DNA from: Mayamaea pseudoterrestris | Lineage: Eukaryota > Bacillariophyta > Bacillariophyceae > Sellaphorales > Sellaphoraceae | NCBI GenBank assembly: GCA_027923505.1 | Contig: BROI01000001.1 | Location: 1,458,501-1,522,500, forward strand | DNA: 64,000 bases | Reading direction: 5' to 3' | Part shown: in pieces, positions 27,857-42,831 of the stretch | How positions within the stretch are numbered: position 1 is the stretch's first letter | Layout: every line of letters starts with the position of its first letter | Program-made: the position numbers and the translations under genes | Notes under the pieces: generated by a model | Database searches by the model: none | Seen by the model: the letters and a program-made list of their open reading frames with translations, nothing else | Told to the model about the DNA's origin: nothing

Positions 27857-28207
27857 GACGTTTTGATCGCGAAAAAAGGCTTTGACGGCCTGCCTCGCTC
27901 CAACAAGGGTCGTTCGAGAGGATCCAGTTGCTCTCTACTCAGACCCCTACTTCTTTCTCAAACTAGCGACCAAGTAATATGAGATTCAAGAGCCTATCTT
28001 ACAAGAGCCCAAAGCAAGCATGAATCTCCGCATTTTGAATGAGGATGATGGATGAAGACTCGCCGCTTGCGTTCGTTGGTGGCGCGGTTCGTGCAAGCGG
28101 TGATGAAAACGCAAATTGGCGATCGTGCTATTTGTGACGTCATTCATGCCGCGCCGTCGCGCCGCGCCTTGATCATGCTGCCCATCATTACATTCCTCGC
28201 AACCACC
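27857..28207. promoter_or_regulatory. Divergent promoter region with a CRE palindrome
   Basis: A 351 bp region between SMG7-like (-) and LAMTOR2-like (+). A perfect TGACGTCA lies at 28135-28142, 66 bp before the LAMTOR2-like ATG, and a half-site TGACGT sits at the SMG7-like start. The open frame extends upstream of 28208 but does not match the family there. Confidence 0.5.
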
Positions 28208-28609
28208 ATGATTCGCTCACGCCGGATACCCCAAGTTTTGGATCGCATATGCGACAATGACGACGAAAACAATAAGAACATTCTCTCGGCCGTCTTGGTG
28301 ACTCTGGACGGTGAGCTCCTTGGAACATCGTCGAACTGCCACAGTCTGCAACCCGACGTTGTTTCCTTTGGCACGCTCGTTTCCGACATGTATTCCGACT
28401 ACGTGCGCCTCGGTGCGTCATGTGTCGAAAAGAGTCAGTTGCAGTGTTTGGTGTTGGAGCTCGAACGAAACGTCTTGGCCGTGGCGCAGTGCGGCGAGCA
28501 GTGTTTAGTGATAGTCGTGGCGGCGCCGCACGCGCCACTTGGGTTAGTCAAGGCGAAACTGGAAGCAACGGCAGCGTTTGTGCAGGAGGCACTGTCGAGT
28601 ATTGATTGA
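28208..28609 (+). CDS. LAMTOR2-like roadblock/LC7-domain protein
   Basis: Has 133 residues from the ATG at 28208 (ACCACCATG context). The frame is open for 52 further codons upstream, but the protein from 28208 has the family length (human LAMTOR2 is 125). The order is: an N-terminal helix MIRSRRIPQVLDRI, a strand pair SAVLVTLDGELLGTS, the helix FGTLVSDMYSDYVRLG, then LQCLVLELERNVLAVAQ, EQCLVIVVAA, and the final helix LGLVKAKLEATAAFVQEAL. This matches the alpha-beta plan of LAMTOR2/p14, especially the G-x-L-x-x-K-x-x-A-L ending. LAMTOR2 is part of Ragulator, which docks Rag GTPases and mTORC1 on lysosomes. Other roadblock proteins (dynein light chain, MglB-like) are the alternative. Confidence 0.68.
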   Translation: MIRSRRIPQVLDRICDNDDENNKNILSAVLVTLDGELLGTSSNCHSLQPDVVSFGTLVSDMYSDYVRLGASCVEKSQLQCLVLELERNVLAVAQCGEQCLVIVVAAPHAPLGLVKAKLEATAAFVQEALSSID

Positions 28610-28803: not shown

Positions 28804-29271
28804 TTAATCAACAATCAGTTCATCAACGGACCAATCTTCATGAGAATTATCCGGCAGATAGCGTCGAATAATGATTGGAATCTTTTTCTCGCGCAGCTCC
28901 TTTTCCGCAATGCGGAGCGGATCCGTTTCGCCGTCCAAGTCCACCATGACGGGCGCGTTCATGCTAATCTGCAGCGCGCGGGTGCCCAAGACGCGGGCCT
29001 TTTCGTATTTTGTCAAATAGCGTGTTGTGATGCGCTCCGATGCAGCCACGTTGCGGCGGCCAGTGCCGTCAGTGTCACTGACAATTGTCACTAGATTGTC
29101 GTTGCGTTCCCCCGTCACGTCCAATGCGTCGTCGTCGTCGTCGTCGTCGTCATCGTCATGCATGTTGTTCATGTCGTCGTCGTCAAGCTGCTCCTGATCG
29201 GATGGATCGTACATGCTACCGTTGCCGCCGCCATCGTCGCCGCCACCCATGTTTCCTTCGTCGTCCGACAT
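28804..29271 (-). CDS. RPB6: RNA polymerase I/II/III common subunit RPABC2 (RPB6)
   Basis: Has 155 residues from the ATG at 29271 ([15 protein letters not shown]); the frame is open upstream but the acidic start is typical of the family. The C-terminal 85 residues are the conserved Rpb6/omega domain: [60 protein letters not shown], and the end [10 protein letters not shown]. The Asp-rich N terminus carries a run of ten Asp encoded by a GTC/GAC microsatellite (about 29123-29150). It is a shared subunit of all three nuclear polymerases. RPA1 at 37-43 kb is another polymerase subunit, but there is no sign that the two are linked functionally by position. Confidence 0.95.
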
Positions 29272-29575
29272 TGTTGTAACGTAAATGCGTGGCGCGTCAA
29301 GGAACTGGTAACGTTGTTGCTGAAGCGAGGTTGATGCGCTGCGAAACCCGAATACTGTACAAGTACTCGAATGATTGTTCCTGCGCATGGATTCGATGGC
29401 TGCGTGCCGCCGCTCGATCAAGTCGTGACGTCATAATGACGTCACCATGACGTCATGATGGCGCGACCGTCACACGTTCGACCATGGAGGAAGCTGCGTC
29501 AAACGTTTTTCAAGTCTCTCTCGCTTTGTGGAAAACCCAGCATTTTAACACTTTACGAATTACACTCTTATCATC
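29272..29575. promoter_or_regulatory. RPB6/ABCF2 divergent promoter
   Basis: A 304 bp head-to-head spacer between two translation/transcription housekeeping genes. It contains the triple CRE array listed separately. No other gene fits. Confidence 0.65.
29426..29455. promoter_or_regulatory. Triple CRE (TGACGTCA) array, 11 bp phased
   Basis: Three perfect TGACGTCA palindromes at 29426-29433, 29437-29444 and 29448-29455. The start-to-start spacing is exactly 11 bp, about one helical turn. They lie 155 bp from the RPB6 ATG and about 120 bp from the ABCF2 ATG. TGACGTCA is the classic bZIP (CREB/ATF) site, and in diatoms TGACGT elements take part in CO2/cAMP-responsive control. Confidence 0.85.
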
Positions 29576-32496
29576 ATGGCTTCCAAGTGGCACCAAAAGA
29601 AGAATAAATTAGCTGAAATACAGTTTGAAAAGGATCTGCTCAGTCGGCCAGGTGAGTGGGTGAATGAATGTTACAATATTGCTTTCATGCAACTATATTC
29701 GTAATAATGGCAGCAAATATCAAGTCGAAATAACATGAGATGAAACACCTATTTACTCACCATACATTATATAGACGACACGACGCAGGAGGTGCGAGGC
29801 TTGAACGACGGCGAGTCGGAGCTCTTTGAGCGCAAGCAAAGCAAGGAGGAAAAAAAGGCGGCGGCCAAGGCGGCCCGAGAAGCCAAGCGCAAGGCCAAGC
29901 AGGCGAGTGATGATAATGATAATGACAATGATAATGACAATTCGCAGCAGCAAGCCAACGTTAATCTGCATGACGCTGCGTCACTCGCACTCGAGCAAAC
30001 CAAGCAACTCGCCGCCGCAACAACCTCACTGGCCGCCGACGACGGCTTGAACCACGACGCGTCCGACGCGTTGGCTGCCAGCGGCACCATTTGCACGTTT
30101 GCGTCATCGGCGCGACTCGTCGACGCCCGGAGCCGCGACGTGTGCGTCCGCAACGTGACGCTGCAGCACTGCGGCGCCGTTTTGCTGCACGAGACGGATG
30201 TTACTTTGAACCACGGCAATCGCTACGGACTCATTGGCCGCAACGGTTGCGGCAAGAGTACACTGCTCAAAGTGCTTGGTGCGAGGGCGTTGCCGATTCC
30301 GCGCGGCATTGATATATTCTTTCTGTCCGAGGAAGTGGAACCGTCCAGTACATTGACGGCGCTCGATGCCGTCATGTCGGTGGATGAGGAGCGACTGGCG
30401 CTGGAGCGTCAGGCGGAGGATTTGAACCATATATTGGCGGAACTGGCCAACAAGGAGGCGGACGGCGAAAACGTGGAGGACGGTGACGGCAAGACGTTTG
30501 AGGAACAAACGGAGGAAATCATGGAGTCGCTCAACATGGTGTACGAGCGACTGGATGCCATGGATGCGTCGACTGCCGAAGTGCGGGCCCGGTCGATTCT
30601 TCGTGGTTTGGGGTTTACGCATGAAATGCAGGGCAAGCTGACCAAGGACTTTTCGGGTGGTTGGAGAATGCGTGTCAGCTTGGCGAGGGCCTTGTTCATT
30701 CAACCGGTTTGTTTGCTACTTGATGAACGTGAGTGAGAGAGTTCGGATGGATTGTGAGTGAGTGAATGCAGTCTTCATCGTACTGAAAGCTAAAACGATC
30801 TTTTGCTTGTTTCTTTCCTGATGACACAGCGACAAATCATTTGGACATGGAGGCTGTCATTTGGCTGGAAGACTACCTATCCAAGTGGAACCGTATTCTC
30901 TTGTTGGTATCTCATTCACAAGATTTTCTCAATGGCGTTTGTACCCACATGATTGACATTCACCAAAAGAAGCTCCAATACTATGACGGCAATTACGATT
31001 CGTACGTCAAGACACGAGACGAAAAGCTAGAGAACCAATGGAAACAATACAAGTGGGAGCAAGAGCAAATGAAGAGCATGAAGGATTACATTGCAAGGTT
31101 TGGGCACGGAACGTCAAAGAATGCCAAGCAGGTATGTACCATACTTGACTCGTATCGATTCTTGTATCGCAGGCTATGCTCTAGCTAACCCCATCCGCCC
31201 ATGGACTCGTCTTCACAGGCTCAAAGCAAGGAGAAGGTGCTGCAAAAGATGGTGAGAGCAGGTCTTACGGAGAAGCCAAGCGAGGAGAAGCCATTGAACT
31301 TCAAGTTTGCTGATCCCGGACACTTGCCACCTCCGGTGCTTGCGTTTCACGACGTTTCGTTCGCCTATTCAAACTGCGAGCCGCTGTATACGCGCGTGAA
31401 CCTTGGCATCGACTTGGATTCGCGCGTGGCTCTCGTCGGACCGAATGGAGCTGGAAAGGTACGCACGTTCCATGGATTGGTGTATTCGCTCGCTGATGGT
31501 AATGTAACATCATGTCGCTAACTATGATTTTGGACTTGTACTATTTGGCAGACAACCTTGATCAAGCTCATGGCTGGAGAATTGCTTCCATCAATGGGCG
31601 ACATTCGACCTCACGGACACTTAAAGCTGGGTCGATTTACGCAGCACTTTGTGGACGTTTTAGACATGACCTTGACACCGCTCGAGTTTTTCGAAAGCTA
31701 CTATCCGGAGGACAGCCGCGAAGATTTGCGCAAGTACCTTGGCCGGTTTGGCGTTTCGGGACAAATGCAGGTGCGCAAAATGGAGGAAATGTCCGATGGA
31801 CAAAAGTCTCGGGTTGTGTTTGCCAAGCTCGGAAGAGACTGTCCTCATATATTGCTACTGGATGAGGTAAGAGATAAAATGACGATTTGAGATTGCTTTA
31901 CCGGTAGAGTTGTTCGTGCTTGAATGCTCACCAACATATCGCTACATTGACAGCCAACGAATCATTTGGACATGGAGTCCATCGACGCCTTGGCTGCCGC
32001 CGTCAACGACTTTTCCGGTGGCATGATATTGGTGAGCCACGACATGCGTCTCATTTCGCAAGTGGCCAAGGAGATTTGGATCTGCGACAATCGATGCATC
32101 ACCAAGTTCAAGGGCGACATTCAGCAATTCAAAATGACCATGCGTGATCAGTTGGAGAAGGATCATGACAAGGACGCTGGTAAGCTACGAGGAGATGCAA
32201 GTACGCTGACGAAATCGCAAGACGCAAAGGCAGTCAAGCCAAAAGTGACAAAGCCTGCTTCAACGCCGGCGCAGCTGCCACCAAAGACGCCGCAAGTGGC
32301 GCAGCAAGAGCCTTCGACAGTCGCCATTGAAACGTTAAAGATAGATGATGACGCTGCCACGGCAACGACGGTAGGCGCGTCTTCCACTGGTTCCTACGTG
32401 CCGCCGCACTTACGAAACGTTACATCCAGTGGCGGCGGCGGAGCCTACGTTCCTCCGCATTTGCGACGAAAGGCGCTGCAGGAGCAACAGTCGTAA
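29576..32496 (+). CDS. ABCF2: ABCF2/ARB1-type ribosome-associated ATPase
   Basis: Non-membrane ABC protein of ribosome biogenesis and translation. Six exons: 29576-29651, 29775-30728, 30830-31131, 31219-31458, 31552-31866, 31954-32496. Introns are 87-123 bp; 809 residues. ATPase 1 has Walker [12 protein letters not shown], signature FSGGWRMR and Walker B LLLDEPTNHLD. ATPase 2 has [19 protein letters not shown] and LLLDEPTNHLD. Segments such as [37 protein letters not shown] and [16 protein letters not shown] match ABCF2 closely. The N terminus is Lys/Ala-rich with an Asp/Asn repeat. An extra C-terminal tail is Pro/Thr-rich and ends with two YVPPHLR motifs. Introns interrupt both Walker B motifs at almost the same point, and one splits the second Walker A. 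Confidence 0.95.
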
Positions 32497-36022: not shown

Positions 36023-36501
36023 GTTGAATCCTTGTATTCGAAAAGGTGCGAGACGCGAGACGACGATTTGTTGAACTCGCACGTTTCGTCGCCTAAGGAG
36101 CTGACGTCACATTTTTTGGCGATGCAAATAGTTTTCACAATTCAGTCTTGCCCAGTCTTGTCAATGTCTCAGGGCAATTCTAACCAAGCAACGTCACTTC
36201 TCTTTCTGAGTCATTATGTGACACGTTTGCAGAATAAATGTCGGGGAATATCTATTTTACTATTGCCTTGATAGATTGGAGTCACTGGGACTTTTATTGG
36301 CGCCAGTAGATCATTGCCCTGAGGTCACGTTTCGATCGAATACGGACCGCGACAAGAGAAAACCGCCGCGCCTTTGACACGGGCGCACGCAAGGCCAAAC
36401 ACCAACTCCACACTTCCTTATCTGCCCGAAAGCCAGTAGTGATTCAACAAAAGCACTCGCTCCCGCGAATATTTAAGGACAAAGGCCTTTATTACCAAAT
36501 C
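36023..36501. promoter_or_regulatory. Divergent promoter region with a CRE palindrome
   Basis: A 479 bp region between the coiled-coil gene (-) and the 107-residue gene (+). It has a perfect TGACGTCA at 36102-36109, 80 bp upstream of the coiled-coil gene's ATG. Confidence 0.5.
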
Positions 36502-37213: not shown

Positions 37214-40200
37214 CTACGCTTTTGTCAACAATGTAAACGAGCCCGTTCCATGAGTCACAGGACGTCCCAAGACAATGTTTCCACTTGGGCTCGTCAGGTC
37301 GTCGCTCTCGTGCGCCATGGCGGCATTCTTCAAAAAGTGACATGTTGTTTCGTAACTCATGCGCAAAAAGGGCGAACTCGACTGCTCCATGCCAATGCGG
37401 TTCATGGCCTTGTAGCCGCCGTCAAATGTCATGTAATCAGCAATCAACGAAAGGTGACGAGGATCAACTTCAATACCATATGCCCCGAACACATTCTTGA
37501 TTTGTTGAACAATGCTCATGCGGGCAGCCTCTACTCCATAGGCACATCGCATGGCCCAAACATGGTTCGAAACCAAGCGGTCGTGGTCAACGCAGTCCAA
37601 TTTCCATATTTCCTCGAAATTGACACCCGCCATTTGCAAACACTTTCCGCGACCGCCATCCTCATCGTTACAAAAGGCTTCATCAATGTTCTTTCGAAAG
37701 CGAACCAGCGTCTTGGCGGCAGTCTGTTCGACAATGCCAACCATGAGCAGTGGAGGAGCTTCCGGTTCCACCTGGAGTGCCTGCAAGGCAATGGAAGTCT
37801 CGTTAATAGTAACTGAATCGGCATCATCGTCATACATGCCCATGTCCGAAGCATCGTCGTCGTCAGCAGCTGCTGTAACGCGTCGTTCAGCAGTGCCACC
37901 GCCTCCAGTTTCATCCGCGCCATCCTCGCCAGCATCCTTGTCGTAGTCGTACGTGGAACTTGCCGCTCGCCGCTTGTACTTTTCACGGTCAGCTCCATCC
38001 TCCTCCGCGTCAACATCCTTGTCGTCGTCAACGTCGTCGTCGGCGTCTTCATCGTTGAGTTCGTCAGAATTAGCGTTGGCTCGCTTGGACTTTGCTTTAT
38101 TGTCACCTTCATCGTCATCGTCGGCACCTCCTCCGCCGCCGCCGTGAACTTCTGACACTTCACCGCCAATAATGTCAAAGTTTTCGCCAGATCGCTTGAT
38201 TTCCAGCTTCATGTTGCGCGAGAGCGCTGGAATGAACCGCTTTGTTACAACCTTGGCAATATCACTCAGTGACAAGCCAAAGGCCTCGCGAATTCGCTCC
38301 GTCGGGTAAAAGCGCAGCGTGACGTAGTAGTTACGCATCCATTCGCCGGCGTCGCCCTGCTGCAAGCACTCTCGGACCGTGACTCCACGCTTCCCAGCCA
38401 AGAGCTCCATTAACGTGAGCTTGGAAAAGTCGCGCGTCAAACGAAGTGCCTGACGGTCCGTAACGCTTTCCAGCAAGGGCACTGACATGGTGGGTGTCTT
38501 TGGTTCGCGCGACGCAGTCATGATGATTTCGCGCAAACGGGGAATACCCAGTGTCACGTTTGCTCCAGCTCCGGCAAGATGAAACGTGTTCAATGTCATT
38601 TGCGTCGAAGGTTCACCAACCGACTGGGCGGCGATACTTCCGACAGCTTCGCCGGGAGCGCAGAGTGCTGACGCGTACTTGGCAGCGACTAACGAGGACA
38701 AGTCATGATTAGTGACTTTACTCTGGTCCAAGGCTGACTTCACTTGTCGCGACTCCATGGCGCGACAGGCAGCCGATGCAACCTTCTCCGATACGCAGGC
38801 GCCGCTAGTGCCCACACGATGCCCTCTCGTGGGGAGTAAAATCGGGTCAGGCGCTGCCAGACGAATCATGGTTGCAATATTCGTCTGGGCGCTTGTCTTT
38901 CTTGTCCCACAGTTTCCTAACTCCAACTCGATTGGTACGCGCTTCGATACAACTCCGTCGCTTTCATATTGGAGATCGTAGCTTCCTTTCTTATGCACTT
39001 TCAAGACCTTTGCGCTGAACCAGCCCTGAGCAAGACATCCATGCTTCCACTCGCTGCCCGACTTGAGTCGCCGCGCTTGGACAATATCGCTGACCTTTAT
39101 GATTTGATCCATTCCTTGCTGCAATTGACTTCGTAGCTCTGCATCTCCCGCTGCAACATCGAGTGTAGACCCATCCAATCCGCTGTTTCGGAGCTTGAGC
39201 GAGTCAAAATTACGAGCCATATACTCAAAGGAACTTGTCGAGCAGTCCAGATACGGCGCTTGCGTCGGATCGAGGCCATCCTCACCGTATAAGAACTGAA
39301 CAACTCCACCCTCGGCATTTCGAACAGTGTAATCATAACAAATTTTGAGTTCCTCCAAATGTTTGACCAGACATCGCTGTAAATATCCAGATCTCGACGT
39401 CTTGACTGCAGTATCGACAAGACCTTCGCGACCCGCCATGCAATGGAAGTAGTATTCTTGCGGACGGCATCCGGTGAGAAACCTATCCATGACAAAGCCA
39501 TCTGCTCGAGGATTCGGATCATAAGGAGCGAAGGATGGTAGTGTACGCCCACTGCTCAATCTAGGAACTCGGCGACCTTCCAAAGCTTGCTGTCCCAGCG
39601 CGCAAGTGACTTGAGATTGATTGACAATAGAACCTTTCGCACCAGTCGTTGTCATGACACCAAACGTATTGTGTGGAAATGGAACGACCAATCCACGAGG
39701 TAGGCACTTCTTTACAATTTGCGACGCCAACGGATTAAGCTGTCCCTGCATGAAGCTATCCAACGCGGCAAAGTTCTCCTTTCCTTCATTACCGGACAAT
39801 AGCTGACCAATCTTTGCTGATGCAGCGGCCGCTTCCACAGGCTTTAATGGCTTTGCCGTGCCATCTGCCTCTGCAATTGGTAGAATTGGCACCTTGCCAC
39901 CTTCAGAATCAGCCCAAGCCTTCGCAGCACGTGAACCAAGGTTGTATGCTTGTTGAACAAGCGTTGCTCGCTCTTCGTCGGCTTCCTTCGTCAGCATTAA
40001 ATCTTCAACTCGACAAGAGTGGCCAGCGTAATTCTGAATGTAAGCGGTGAACAGTCTCCCAAGCGCATTGAGCAGTAGACCAGCCTTTTCTGGACCATAT
40101 GCTTCGTAAATGGCATGCACAAGCGAAAACTCTGTAGCACCAAACGCGTTCTTATCCAGCACACCGCGAAGCAGCTCCCCATCTCGAATTAAGACCAAAT

Positions 40201-42831
40201 TTTCGCCTTGTCCTGCGGCAATCTCCGGCGTCTTTGCTTTACGTTCCATTGAAAGGCCAGGGCAGTCAGCATCGCCCTTCTCTGCGCCTTTTCTCAGGTG
40301 CAACAAGAGTGTAGAAATGACTTGCTTTCCAGTCCAAAGTTCCCGAGGTTTGATAATAGCAGGTGGCAAAAGCTCAATCGCCATGTCGGCGCGAATGACC
40401 TCCAATCCGGGCAAACTCGCCAGTGCGGCAAAGACTAGTTGCTGATACATCCACTTTTCAAAGAACGTGTCTTTTTTCGTTATCATGACACCTCCAACAA
40501 CATGATCTTGAATCAAACCACGAAGCGGCGAGCCATCGGTCGGAACAATGTACTGCAAATCAGTCTTGGCGATGAACTGAGCCTCCGCTCGCGCAAGATC
40601 ACTTTGCGGGAAATGGCAATTCATTTCATCACCGTCATAATCGGCGTTGTACGTGTTACAGTTGGCGTAGTGCATTCTAATAGTCTTTTGCGTAGGGTTA
40701 TGCAGTAGTCGTACCCTGTGTGCCATGATACCAGGCTTGTGCAGCGTTGGCTATTGCGACAATGAAGTGGTGTGAGATCGGGTTGTTAACAAGAACACGA
40801 GCAACACAAAGTAGCTTCCTCAGAACAGTCAACAAGGCGACTCCTTTCGGAGACACTAAGCAACTGGTGTATGGTCATAATCCTTCATTCGTTTCGGAGT
40901 GGTGCATGACAAAGAGCTCATCCACGGAAGCACAAACAGCAATATTCGTCTCAACGACATGTTTCGTACCTGTCGATTCATCAAAACGTAATCACCATCG
41001 CGCAGCTGCCGCCCAACCAAGGCAGGCATTCCTCCCTTCTTTACATGCACCAAAAGCTGCGCCGCGATCGCTTCTCGCTTGTGCTGCTTCATTTTGCTCA
41101 AGTCAACTCGCTTGCCGGCAATCTCGACCCATCGCGCACCAGGATATTCAATGCCCCGTTCCACCAGCTCTCTCATCTCCTTAATGTTCAAGTCCGTCAC
41201 TGGAGTTGGATAAGTCAAGACCGTCGCAAAGTAGCGGGGTAATCCAATCTCATTTGTTCCGACGTATGGATCCGGACTAATGACGGATCGACAAGCATAG
41301 TCAACACGCTTTCCCATCATGTTCTTACGAAACAAACCTTCCTTGCGCTCCAAAATTTGACGGATACCAGGAGCCACTTGATTCGCCGGAGTTGCTCCCG
41401 GATATTTCGACGAATCCATAAAGCAATTCACATTGGTCTGCAGTTCAATCCAGGTTGTGTACGCACGATCCTCGTCGCCAGAGGCAAACTGCGTGCGTAG
41501 CAGCTCATTTAATGATATAATCTTTGACAAATACTGTGTCTGCGAATGCTCCACCGACATGCCATTCAAATGCATGGACGGACGAAACCGACTGGGCGGA
41601 ACGGGAATGGCTCGCATCAAGTAAATCCTGTAGCCGTCAGTGTCCATGCTAGGTCCGTAGCCAAAGAGGCAGTTGCAGAGAAAGGGGTCCACCTTCCAGG
41701 TGCGCGCCAGCTGCGCCTCCACTTCGGCGGGATGCATAAACTTGTCCTGCTTGGACGATGCTGCGGATGATTGCTTGGTTTCCGACTCGGACTCGGAATC
41801 TTCGTCGCTTTCATCGTCAGCCTCCATGTCATCGTCATTTAAATTTCTCGCTCCTCGTTCATGCGCACTGTCATCCGAATCAGCAGCCGCCGCCGCATCC
41901 ATACCTTGCTTGAGTGCCGATACTAGTTTAATATTTTCCTGCGCATTGCGCTTGCGGTTCTGGTTACTGAGAGCAGCTTGAAAAATCTTGTTGGAGGCGT
42001 CCTGACGAATCTTGGGGTTATAGCAACCGCAATGCTCGCACTTTTTGGTGCGCTTGCAATCCGAAATGCAAGCTTGAATGAGTTCCTTGCGAAGCGCAAG
42101 TTCATATGAATTTAGTTTACTGTTTGCTGTTGCTGATGGAGTAGTGTCATCGTCGTTCCCATGACTTGGCTGCAAGTCGCGCAGCAACTGATCCATGGCT
42201 CGACCAGCCGCCGCTCGGTTGCTACTACTAGCCGAGGATCGCGTTGCACCACCTTCATTTCCATCACTTGCAGCCATTGACCCAGACGCCATTGACGCCG
42301 CCTGCGCCAATTCATCATCCAGTTCCAGCAGTCGCACCATGTCATGCTGATACAGCAAGTGAAACTTGGCTCGATGAATCGCCAGCGACCGCGCCGGCGC
42401 CTGCAGCTTGTGACAGTTCAAACACTTGAGTCGCAAGAGTTGCAAAATATCCATAAACAGTAGTGTGTGATAGACTGGTACTGCCAATTCAATGTGCGCA
42501 TAGTGGCCCGGGCAGTCGTTGGAAGGAAGCGCGCATGTGACGCACGACACGGCGCGATCAATGCTTCCCAAGCGTGAGTCGTACAAGCCGCCCGGTAACG
42601 CATGGCCCATGGGGTCAAATGCTTGTGATGATGTAATTTCTAATATACTGCGCTTGCGTACATCTTCGTCGGAATAGAAACTGAGTGTATGATGTGAATA
42701 TGTTCATGGAACGAGTTAGTTGATGATGATGATCAGCATGTCCTCATCGCTTCTCTTAATTTTTCTTACCCAAACTCAACCGACTGAACCTGCTTGCGAA
42801 TGACGGCATCCTTTGGATTAATGGAAATCAT
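37214..42831 (-). CDS. RPA1: RNA polymerase I largest subunit (RPA1/RPA190)
   Basis: Catalytic subunit that transcribes pre-rRNA in the nucleolus. Three exons, 42831-42770, 42680-40970, 40750-37214; introns are 89 and 219 bp; 1769 residues. It starts MISINPKDAVIRKQVQSVEF. The clamp zinc motif is C-x2-C-x6-C-x2-H (CVTCALPSNDCPGHY), with a second Cys cluster KKCEHCGCYNP. The active-site motif is NADYDGDEMNCHFPQ (about 627), where the usual NADFDGD has Tyr for Phe. The bridge and trigger regions include SFMQGQLNPLASQIVKKCLP and GEAVGSIAAQSVGEPSTQMT. A long acidic, low-complexity insertion (about residues 1455-1560, Gly run then Asp/Glu/Lys) sits in the jaw region typical of Pol I. The first two introns are in the 5' third. 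Confidence 0.96.

Follow-up and report, generated by a model that had tools for sequence, protein, structure and literature searches.

Three perfect copies of the CRE palindrome TGACGTCA, set in exact 11-bp steps, lie between the start codons of the divergent genes for RPB6 and an ABCF2/ARB1-like protein (Table 1). The array is real and not a product of chance, and it is an instance of an already known kind. Its remarkable feature is the 11-bp register and not the number of copies. We consider it probable that the array functions as a homotypic cluster of CREB/ATF-type bZIP sites, located in the upstream region shared by the two genes. Overall, the interpretation given in the initial annotation was partly supported.

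Table 1. Coordinates of the array, of the flanking genes and of the two single sites within the window (the whole stretch of 64 kb that was analysed).
Feature	Position	Strand	Remarks
Head-to-head intergenic region, 304 bp	29272..29575	.	Between the two start codons
RPB6 (RPABC2), 155 aa	28804..29271	-	Pfam PF01192 E 2.2e-11; PDB RPABC2 chains E 1.4e-38
ABCF2/ARB1-like exon 1, ATG 29576	29576..29651	+	Joined frame stays open
ABCF2/ARB1-like intron, GT...AG	29652-29774	+	Placed by eye
ABCF2/ARB1-like second open stretch	29775..30736	+	ABC_tran E 6.4e-19 on 29792-30736
Triple CRE array	29426..29455	.	Three perfect TGACGTCA, exact 11-bp steps
CRE 1	29426..29433	.	Exact search
CRE 2	29437..29444	.	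Centre 29440.5; ~170 bp to RPB6 ATG, ~135 bp to ABCF2-like ATG
CRE 3	29448..29455	.	Exact search
Single CRE GTGACGTCAT	28135..28142	.	~70 bp upstream of likely roadblock/LAMTOR2-like start, 28208
Single TGACGTCA, 10-mer CTGACGTCAC	36102..36109	.	Between IQ-motif ORF (-) and + strand ORF

The head-to-head arrangement of RPB6 and ABCF2 around the array, as proposed initially, was confirmed by Pfam and PDB matches, with the start codons at 29271 (- strand) and 29576 (+ strand). The distance between the two ATGs is well below the 1 kb that delimits head-to-head genes in the definition of a bidirectional promoter, and the array thus has the promoter location of a CREB/ATF-type CRE; the wider sample on location (see below) is small. 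RPB6 (RPABC2) is a subunit common to RNA polymerases I, II and III. The ABCF2-like gene has yeast ARB1 as its best PDB match (E 3.8e-42); its model covers exon 1 and the second open stretch, and the frame stops at 30736, after one ABC domain. The sequence of the gap (searched as 29272-29576) matched only itself in the genome, in a search that skips simple repeats, and a repeated element was therefore rejected as the source of the array. Elsewhere in the window, at 37214-40726 (- strand), a match to Rpb1 domain 5 spans 700 residues against a profile of 267 positions, pointing to an RNA polymerase large subunit with a long insertion.

Exact search of the window bore out the three copies of TGACGTCA with their 11-bp steps and the two further copies at 28135-28142 and 36102-36109, all reported in the initial annotation, and gave a total of five (28135, 29426, 29437, 29448 and 36102). 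Shuffled versions of the window contained 1.62 copies on average, and five or more were reached in 3 of 100 shuffles; the copy number is thus only modest evidence, and the single sites at 28135 and 36102 may be chance occurrences. For the TGACGT half site, the 45 matches in the window do not amount to an enrichment over the 39.4 expected (45 were reached in 15 of 100 shuffles). The register was detected by Tandem Repeats Finder as a period of 11 with 3.2 copies at 29426-29460. In the genome (30,627,229 bases in 41 contigs), which contains 890 copies of TGACGTCA, random placement would yield 0.026 exact 11-bp pairs and 7.5e-7 triplets of the 11+11 kind, from which it follows that the array is not due to chance. 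With their flanks, the three array sites read GTGACGTCAT, ATGACGTCAC and ATGACGTCAT; all three perfect cores thus carry the preferred flanks of a CREB/ATF-type CRE, in the form RTGACGTCAY. The codon-usage scores at the array sites (0.9, −4.3 and −4.9) are not coding-like.

The two single sites score as coding-like (8.7 for 28135 and 7.5 for 36102), but 56% of the window positions exceed a score of 5. The site at 28135 falls within the longest ORF (28052-28609), yet 5' of the likely LAMTOR2-like start. The roadblock/LAMTOR2-like gene itself is matched weakly: Robl_LC7 gave an E of 2.3e-4, which is under the cut-off, and LAMTOR2 chains gave 0.011, with an eL30 chain slightly better at 0.0099. 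The site at 36102 (CTGACGTCAC) is the one of the five that does not fit RTGACGTCAY. It falls within an ORF of 111 aa that was taken as spurious, and the + strand ORF beside it is a 'coiled-coil gene' by the naming of the initial annotation only. The earlier statement that no copy lies in coding sequence is probably right, with 28135 preceding the likely start and the ORF at 36102 judged spurious.

The abundance of the site was determined over the whole genome and compared with that of reversed control words and with Markov models. The bare TGACGTCA (890 copies, against 633 for the reversed word) is not clearly enriched, the models predicting 674-1655 copies (724-1046 at orders 1 and 2), and it was ruled out as the enriched unit. 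The excess sits in RTGACGTCAY, the form of 389 of the 890 sites as compared with 140 of 633 in the reversed control; sites without the R..Y flanks show no excess (501 versus 493 in the control). RTGACGTCAY exceeded the order-1, order-2 and order-4 expectations 1.74-2.24 fold, that is, about twofold in three of the four models, while the control YACTGCAGTR was at 0.58-1.30. The excess is gone at order 3 (0.85-0.99), a model that over-predicts control words too. For the single 10-mer ATGACGTCAT, 122 copies were counted in the genome versus 27 for its control TACTGCAGTA, a contrast that overstates the case, because the control has TA steps and is itself 1.9-2.0 fold above the order-1 expectation, near the value of ATGACGTCAT (2.3-2.5 at order 1, 1.4-2.5 over the order-1, -2 and -4 models together, and 0.63-0.74 over order 3). 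In the genome-wide count proposed as a check, the 8-mer was thus not clearly enriched, and the extended motif was in excess over three of the four models.

Perfect sites cluster in the genome. At gaps of 0-30, 15 pairs were found versus 1 for the reversed word and, with identical copies collapsed and the window array included, 13 versus 0.80 expected. Pairs of a full and a half site (full pairs included) amounted to 29 and 31 on the two strands versus 8 and 9; the corresponding counts for the opposite orientation were 34 and 35 versus 7 and 8. Exact 11-bp pairs of perfect sites occur three times genome-wide, twice in the array and once at C1:1623914. For the analysis of spacing, identical and near-identical repeat copies were collapsed by hand, leaving 63 non-redundant pairs without the array; 7 of these had the 11-bp spacing (2.0 expected, p = 0.004), and 6 of 55 after removal of repeat families (p = 0.008). 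The peak, which had been suggested as a further check, was found in the direct orientation of full and half sites (5/27), with one perfect pair in addition, but was absent in the opposite orientation (1/25, that one in a repeat family). Evidence of a 10.5-bp helical periodicity was weak (p from 0.04 to 0.14 for the two main sets). The other 11-bp pairs have unrelated spacers and lie at unrelated loci. Triples of TGACG, with all spacings tried, showed no enrichment: their numbers were 80 and 78, versus 102 and 1249 for the control. Exact 11+11 triples beyond the window were found at at least three loci among the matches listed (C1:1623906, C7:129326 and C9:586066); the exact triples were identified by eye as the six matches with a span of 27, the spans being checked afterwards, among these matches, which are part of 158. 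The closest sibling of the array among the matches listed is at C1:1622414-1625432, where two perfect CREs and a TGACG half site stand in 11+11 register between genes for a PLP enzyme and TatD.

Some CRE pairs elsewhere in the genome sit within repeats. One pair is present at six places, and at four of these a second CRE pair lies 358-359 bp off, as in a repeat (C2:2288963/2289322, C17:510591/510950, C26:109952/110310 and C33:229826/230185); another pair (TGACGTCAAGGACGTCA) is likewise present at six places. In one repeat family with many ATATGCC/GGCATAT inverted motifs, each of the three copies seen (C1:757579, 1671408 and 1680639; L022, L028 and L029) carries ATGACGTCAT. CREs may be part of transposon promoters. 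The terms cAMP, CRE, TGACGT and bZIP are all absent from a paper on diatom retrotransposons (PMC2806351).

The array could also have arisen incidentally as a short tandem duplication that started from one CRE, in which case it would be a minisatellite of three copies without function beyond that of a single site. Slippage can make such arrays, and the array is a period-11 tandem repeat, as reported above. We regard this as unlikely. The cores of the three copies are identical (24/24 bases; 0 of 8 columns vary), whereas the other three columns of the 11-bp unit all differ. Given duplication of an 11-bp unit and even divergence, all three variable columns would fall outside the core with a chance of 1 in 165, a figure that rests on three copies only. 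Moreover, the G/A and T/C changes in the flanks preserve the RTGACGTCAY form, and the spacers of the 11-bp pairs at other, unrelated loci are unrelated as well.

The location of the sites relative to genes was scored for the first 15 of the 122 ATGACGTCAT sites and the first 15 of the 27 control sites, each examined together with the 1.5 kb to its left and right; genes were called from ORF length and codon usage. Two copies of L022 (L028 and L029) were removed, whereas L022 itself was kept and counts as near a start and divergent; among the remaining 13 sites are the window array (L026) and the pair at C1:1623914 (L027). Of the 13 ATGACGTCAT sites, 11 have a called start no more than 350 bp downstream of them, versus 4/15 controls (Fisher p = 0.003), and 8/13 versus 0/15 lie in divergent gaps (p = 0.0004). 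The baseline over window positions is 13–14% near a start and 7–13% in divergent gaps. The divergent share of the near-start sites (8/11) exceeds the one third expected under random gene order (p = 0.009). The values should be read with the small sample, the ORF-based calls and the setting of the 350-bp limit after the listing had been viewed in mind. The calls at two loci depend on details of the ORFs: L027 was counted as in-ORF because the first ATG of that ORF falls in the CRE, and the array was scored as one-sided, since the call for the ABCF2-like gene missed its short first exon and that for RPB6 used an in-frame ATG 5' of the start; by hand, the array is divergent. Loci with perfect pairs were divergent in 8 of 10 cases, in a set that overlaps the first sample in part and includes two repeats. 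These 10 were scored out of 15 loci, leaving out L001 and L002 (window), L005 and L007 (repeat copies) and L012 (cluster of L011).

As regards the comparison of promoters with coding DNA, another proposed check, ATGACGTCAT is concentrated upstream of called starts in this small sample; the in-ORF counts alone were 2/13 CRE versus 8/15 control sites (p = 0.055). The TGA in TGACGTCA bars one coding frame and alone removes about a third of the coding occurrences. Codon-usage scores above 5 were found for 2/15 CRE and 4/15 control sites, a poor separation when taken alone. A position of the CREs at the midpoint of divergent gaps was considered and rejected; L016 (285/301), L023 (175/174) and L008 (347/348) fit, but other loci do not.

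The genes next to the CREs that could be named by Pfam are mixed: seryl- and alanyl-tRNA synthetase, TatD beside a PLP enzyme, PIG-V, a cyclin, cation efflux and SDR proteins; many of the flanking ORFs received no Pfam name. The 'growth genes' of the initial annotation were thus not borne out as a target class. A regulon for amino-acid metabolism was not retained either, the two tRNA synthetases among the neighbours being suggestive only. At L016 and L008, genes for seryl-tRNA and alanyl-tRNA synthetase each have CREs in a gap called divergent, and L008 carries a CRE pair spaced by 23 bp together with a near-copy. L025, which was counted as divergent, has a copia gag ORF at a distance of 935 bp from its CRE.

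The genome contains 19 matches to bZIP_1, of which 14 are over the cut-off. The best of these proteins (C32:263594) has the basic region KRKERLEQNRISARESRKRKK and matches CREB1/CREB; CREB chains were its only solved-structure matches at E <0.001. The genome thus holds a plausible candidate reader of the CRE. Of the 19, two were compared, and the second gave no solved-structure match. Another bZIP_1 match (C1:1450911-1451048) lies about 7.5 kb before the start of the window and 37 kb from the array. The genome also carries strong silicon transporter genes, which mark it as that of a diatom. One open frame of 1445 aa beyond the window (C1:2970661-2974680) contains three consecutive silicon transporter domains and resembles a triple-SIT fusion.

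CO2-cAMP responses in Phaeodactylum are mediated by TGACGT/C motifs to which PtbZIP11 binds; upstream of PtCA1 and PtBST1, these motifs are found on both strands (accessible part of PMC11142338). By analogy, the array might be a CO2/cAMP-responsive element like those of diatom carbonic anhydrase genes, through which a PtbZIP11-type factor would repress or derepress RPB6 and ABCF2 with CO2 and couple transcription and ribosome capacity to carbon supply. If true, carbon sensing would be linked to a subunit that the RNA polymerases share and to an ABC-F factor associated with the ribosome. The array has TGACGT/C on both strands within ~300 bp of a start codon, which is the arrangement of the PtbZIP11-bound element as given in that part of the paper (PMC11142338), and the genome encodes a CREB-like bZIP. 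On the other hand, the site may be common to many of the bZIP proteins, given the 19 bZIP_1 matches, the genes beside other CREs are mixed, and none of the Pfam-named neighbours is a known carbon-concentrating gene, in a set where many flanking ORFs are nameless. We regard a CO2/cAMP-responsive element as improbable.

For the preferred reading, a functional cluster of CREB/ATF-type sites, the geometry suggests how the array might work. One bZIP dimer would bind to each RTGACGTCAY palindrome. An 11-bp step is close to one helical turn, so that the three dimers would line up next to one another along almost one face of the helix, with a distance of about 37 angstroms and a rotation of about 17 degrees per step (calculated with 10.5 bp/turn and 3.4 angstroms/bp). 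Three adjacent dimers would fit without obvious clash and could form one activation surface, and through this placement on the same face they could recruit a coactivator together. As each site is symmetric, the cluster would be able to act on, and possibly activate, both divergent genes; the two core promoters, rather than the array, would determine the direction.

An action at the level of translation is very unlikely. The array would then be part of a 5' leader, its ATGs forming minimal upstream reading frames ahead of ABCF2. ATGs are indeed present on the + strand, at 29436, 29447, 29455 and 29458, and the first two reach a stop within five codons; the minimal frames in 29436-29460 read MTSP stop and MTS stop. 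However, the palindromes and the two directions are left unexplained, and the frame from 29455 overruns the ABCF2 start in a different frame and should hinder translation, for which reason the ABCF2 transcript probably starts downstream of the array. For the array, chance can be dismissed, since five sites per 64 kb do arise in a few shuffles but the exact triplet is so rarely expected in a genome of this size.

Of greater interest than the array itself would be a wider pattern in which the extended CRE favours divergent promoters and an 11-bp register; the support for it is only moderate. We put forward only tentatively that RTGACGTCAY serves as a general control element in head-to-head promoters, with a CREB-like bZIP as its reader and with clusters in 11-bp register. 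The array would be the extreme case of this pattern, with one symmetric element setting the output of two genes. The cis-regulatory grammar of diatoms, in the literature cited here, is built on few genes. The array and its siblings (C1:1623914, between the PLP-enzyme and TatD genes, C9:586066 and C1:1067822) offer direct material on the helical phasing of bZIP sites, and they also bear on whether one symmetric cluster drives two genes.

The array shares its 8-bp palindrome with the CRE/ATF sites of the CREB family, and the excess of RTGACGTCAY and the CREB-like bZIP gene fit this likeness; it differs from CREB-family promoters by three full sites at exactly 11 bp. The as-1 element of plants has two TGACG sites with centres 12 bp apart, whereas the array has three full sites at 11 and 11. 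Tandem TGACG sites are nonetheless common to both, and plant TGA factors bind such sites as two bZIP dimers, for which the spacing matters (accessible part of PMC9360754). A limited search of the literature, which says little on what is in print overall, found no paper linking TGACGTCA with diatoms, and the accessible part of a paper on ras2/rop contains nothing on CREs in its promoter (PMC1968695). In human cells, a CREB1 site works in the bidirectional promoter of SART3/ISCU; the setting is that of the array, but damage to the site lowers SART3 only, so that one side is affected (accessible part of PMC12192476). With the CO2-cAMP elements of diatoms (PtCA1, PtCA2 and PtBST1; PtbZIP11) the array shares TGACGT on both strands near a start codon, but those are inverted TGACGT/C motifs at carbon-concentrating genes, whereas the array consists of full palindromes in direct 11-bp register at RPB6/ABCF2 (accessible part of PMC11142338). 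Among diatoms, the homotypic clustering of a motif has a precedent in the putative bidirectional promoter of nitrate reductase of Phaeodactylum, which carries five HNS_A motifs with the ETS-like CCGGAAG; the motif is a different one there, and the accessible part of that paper states no fixed helical spacing (PMC6779911), which in the array is exact.
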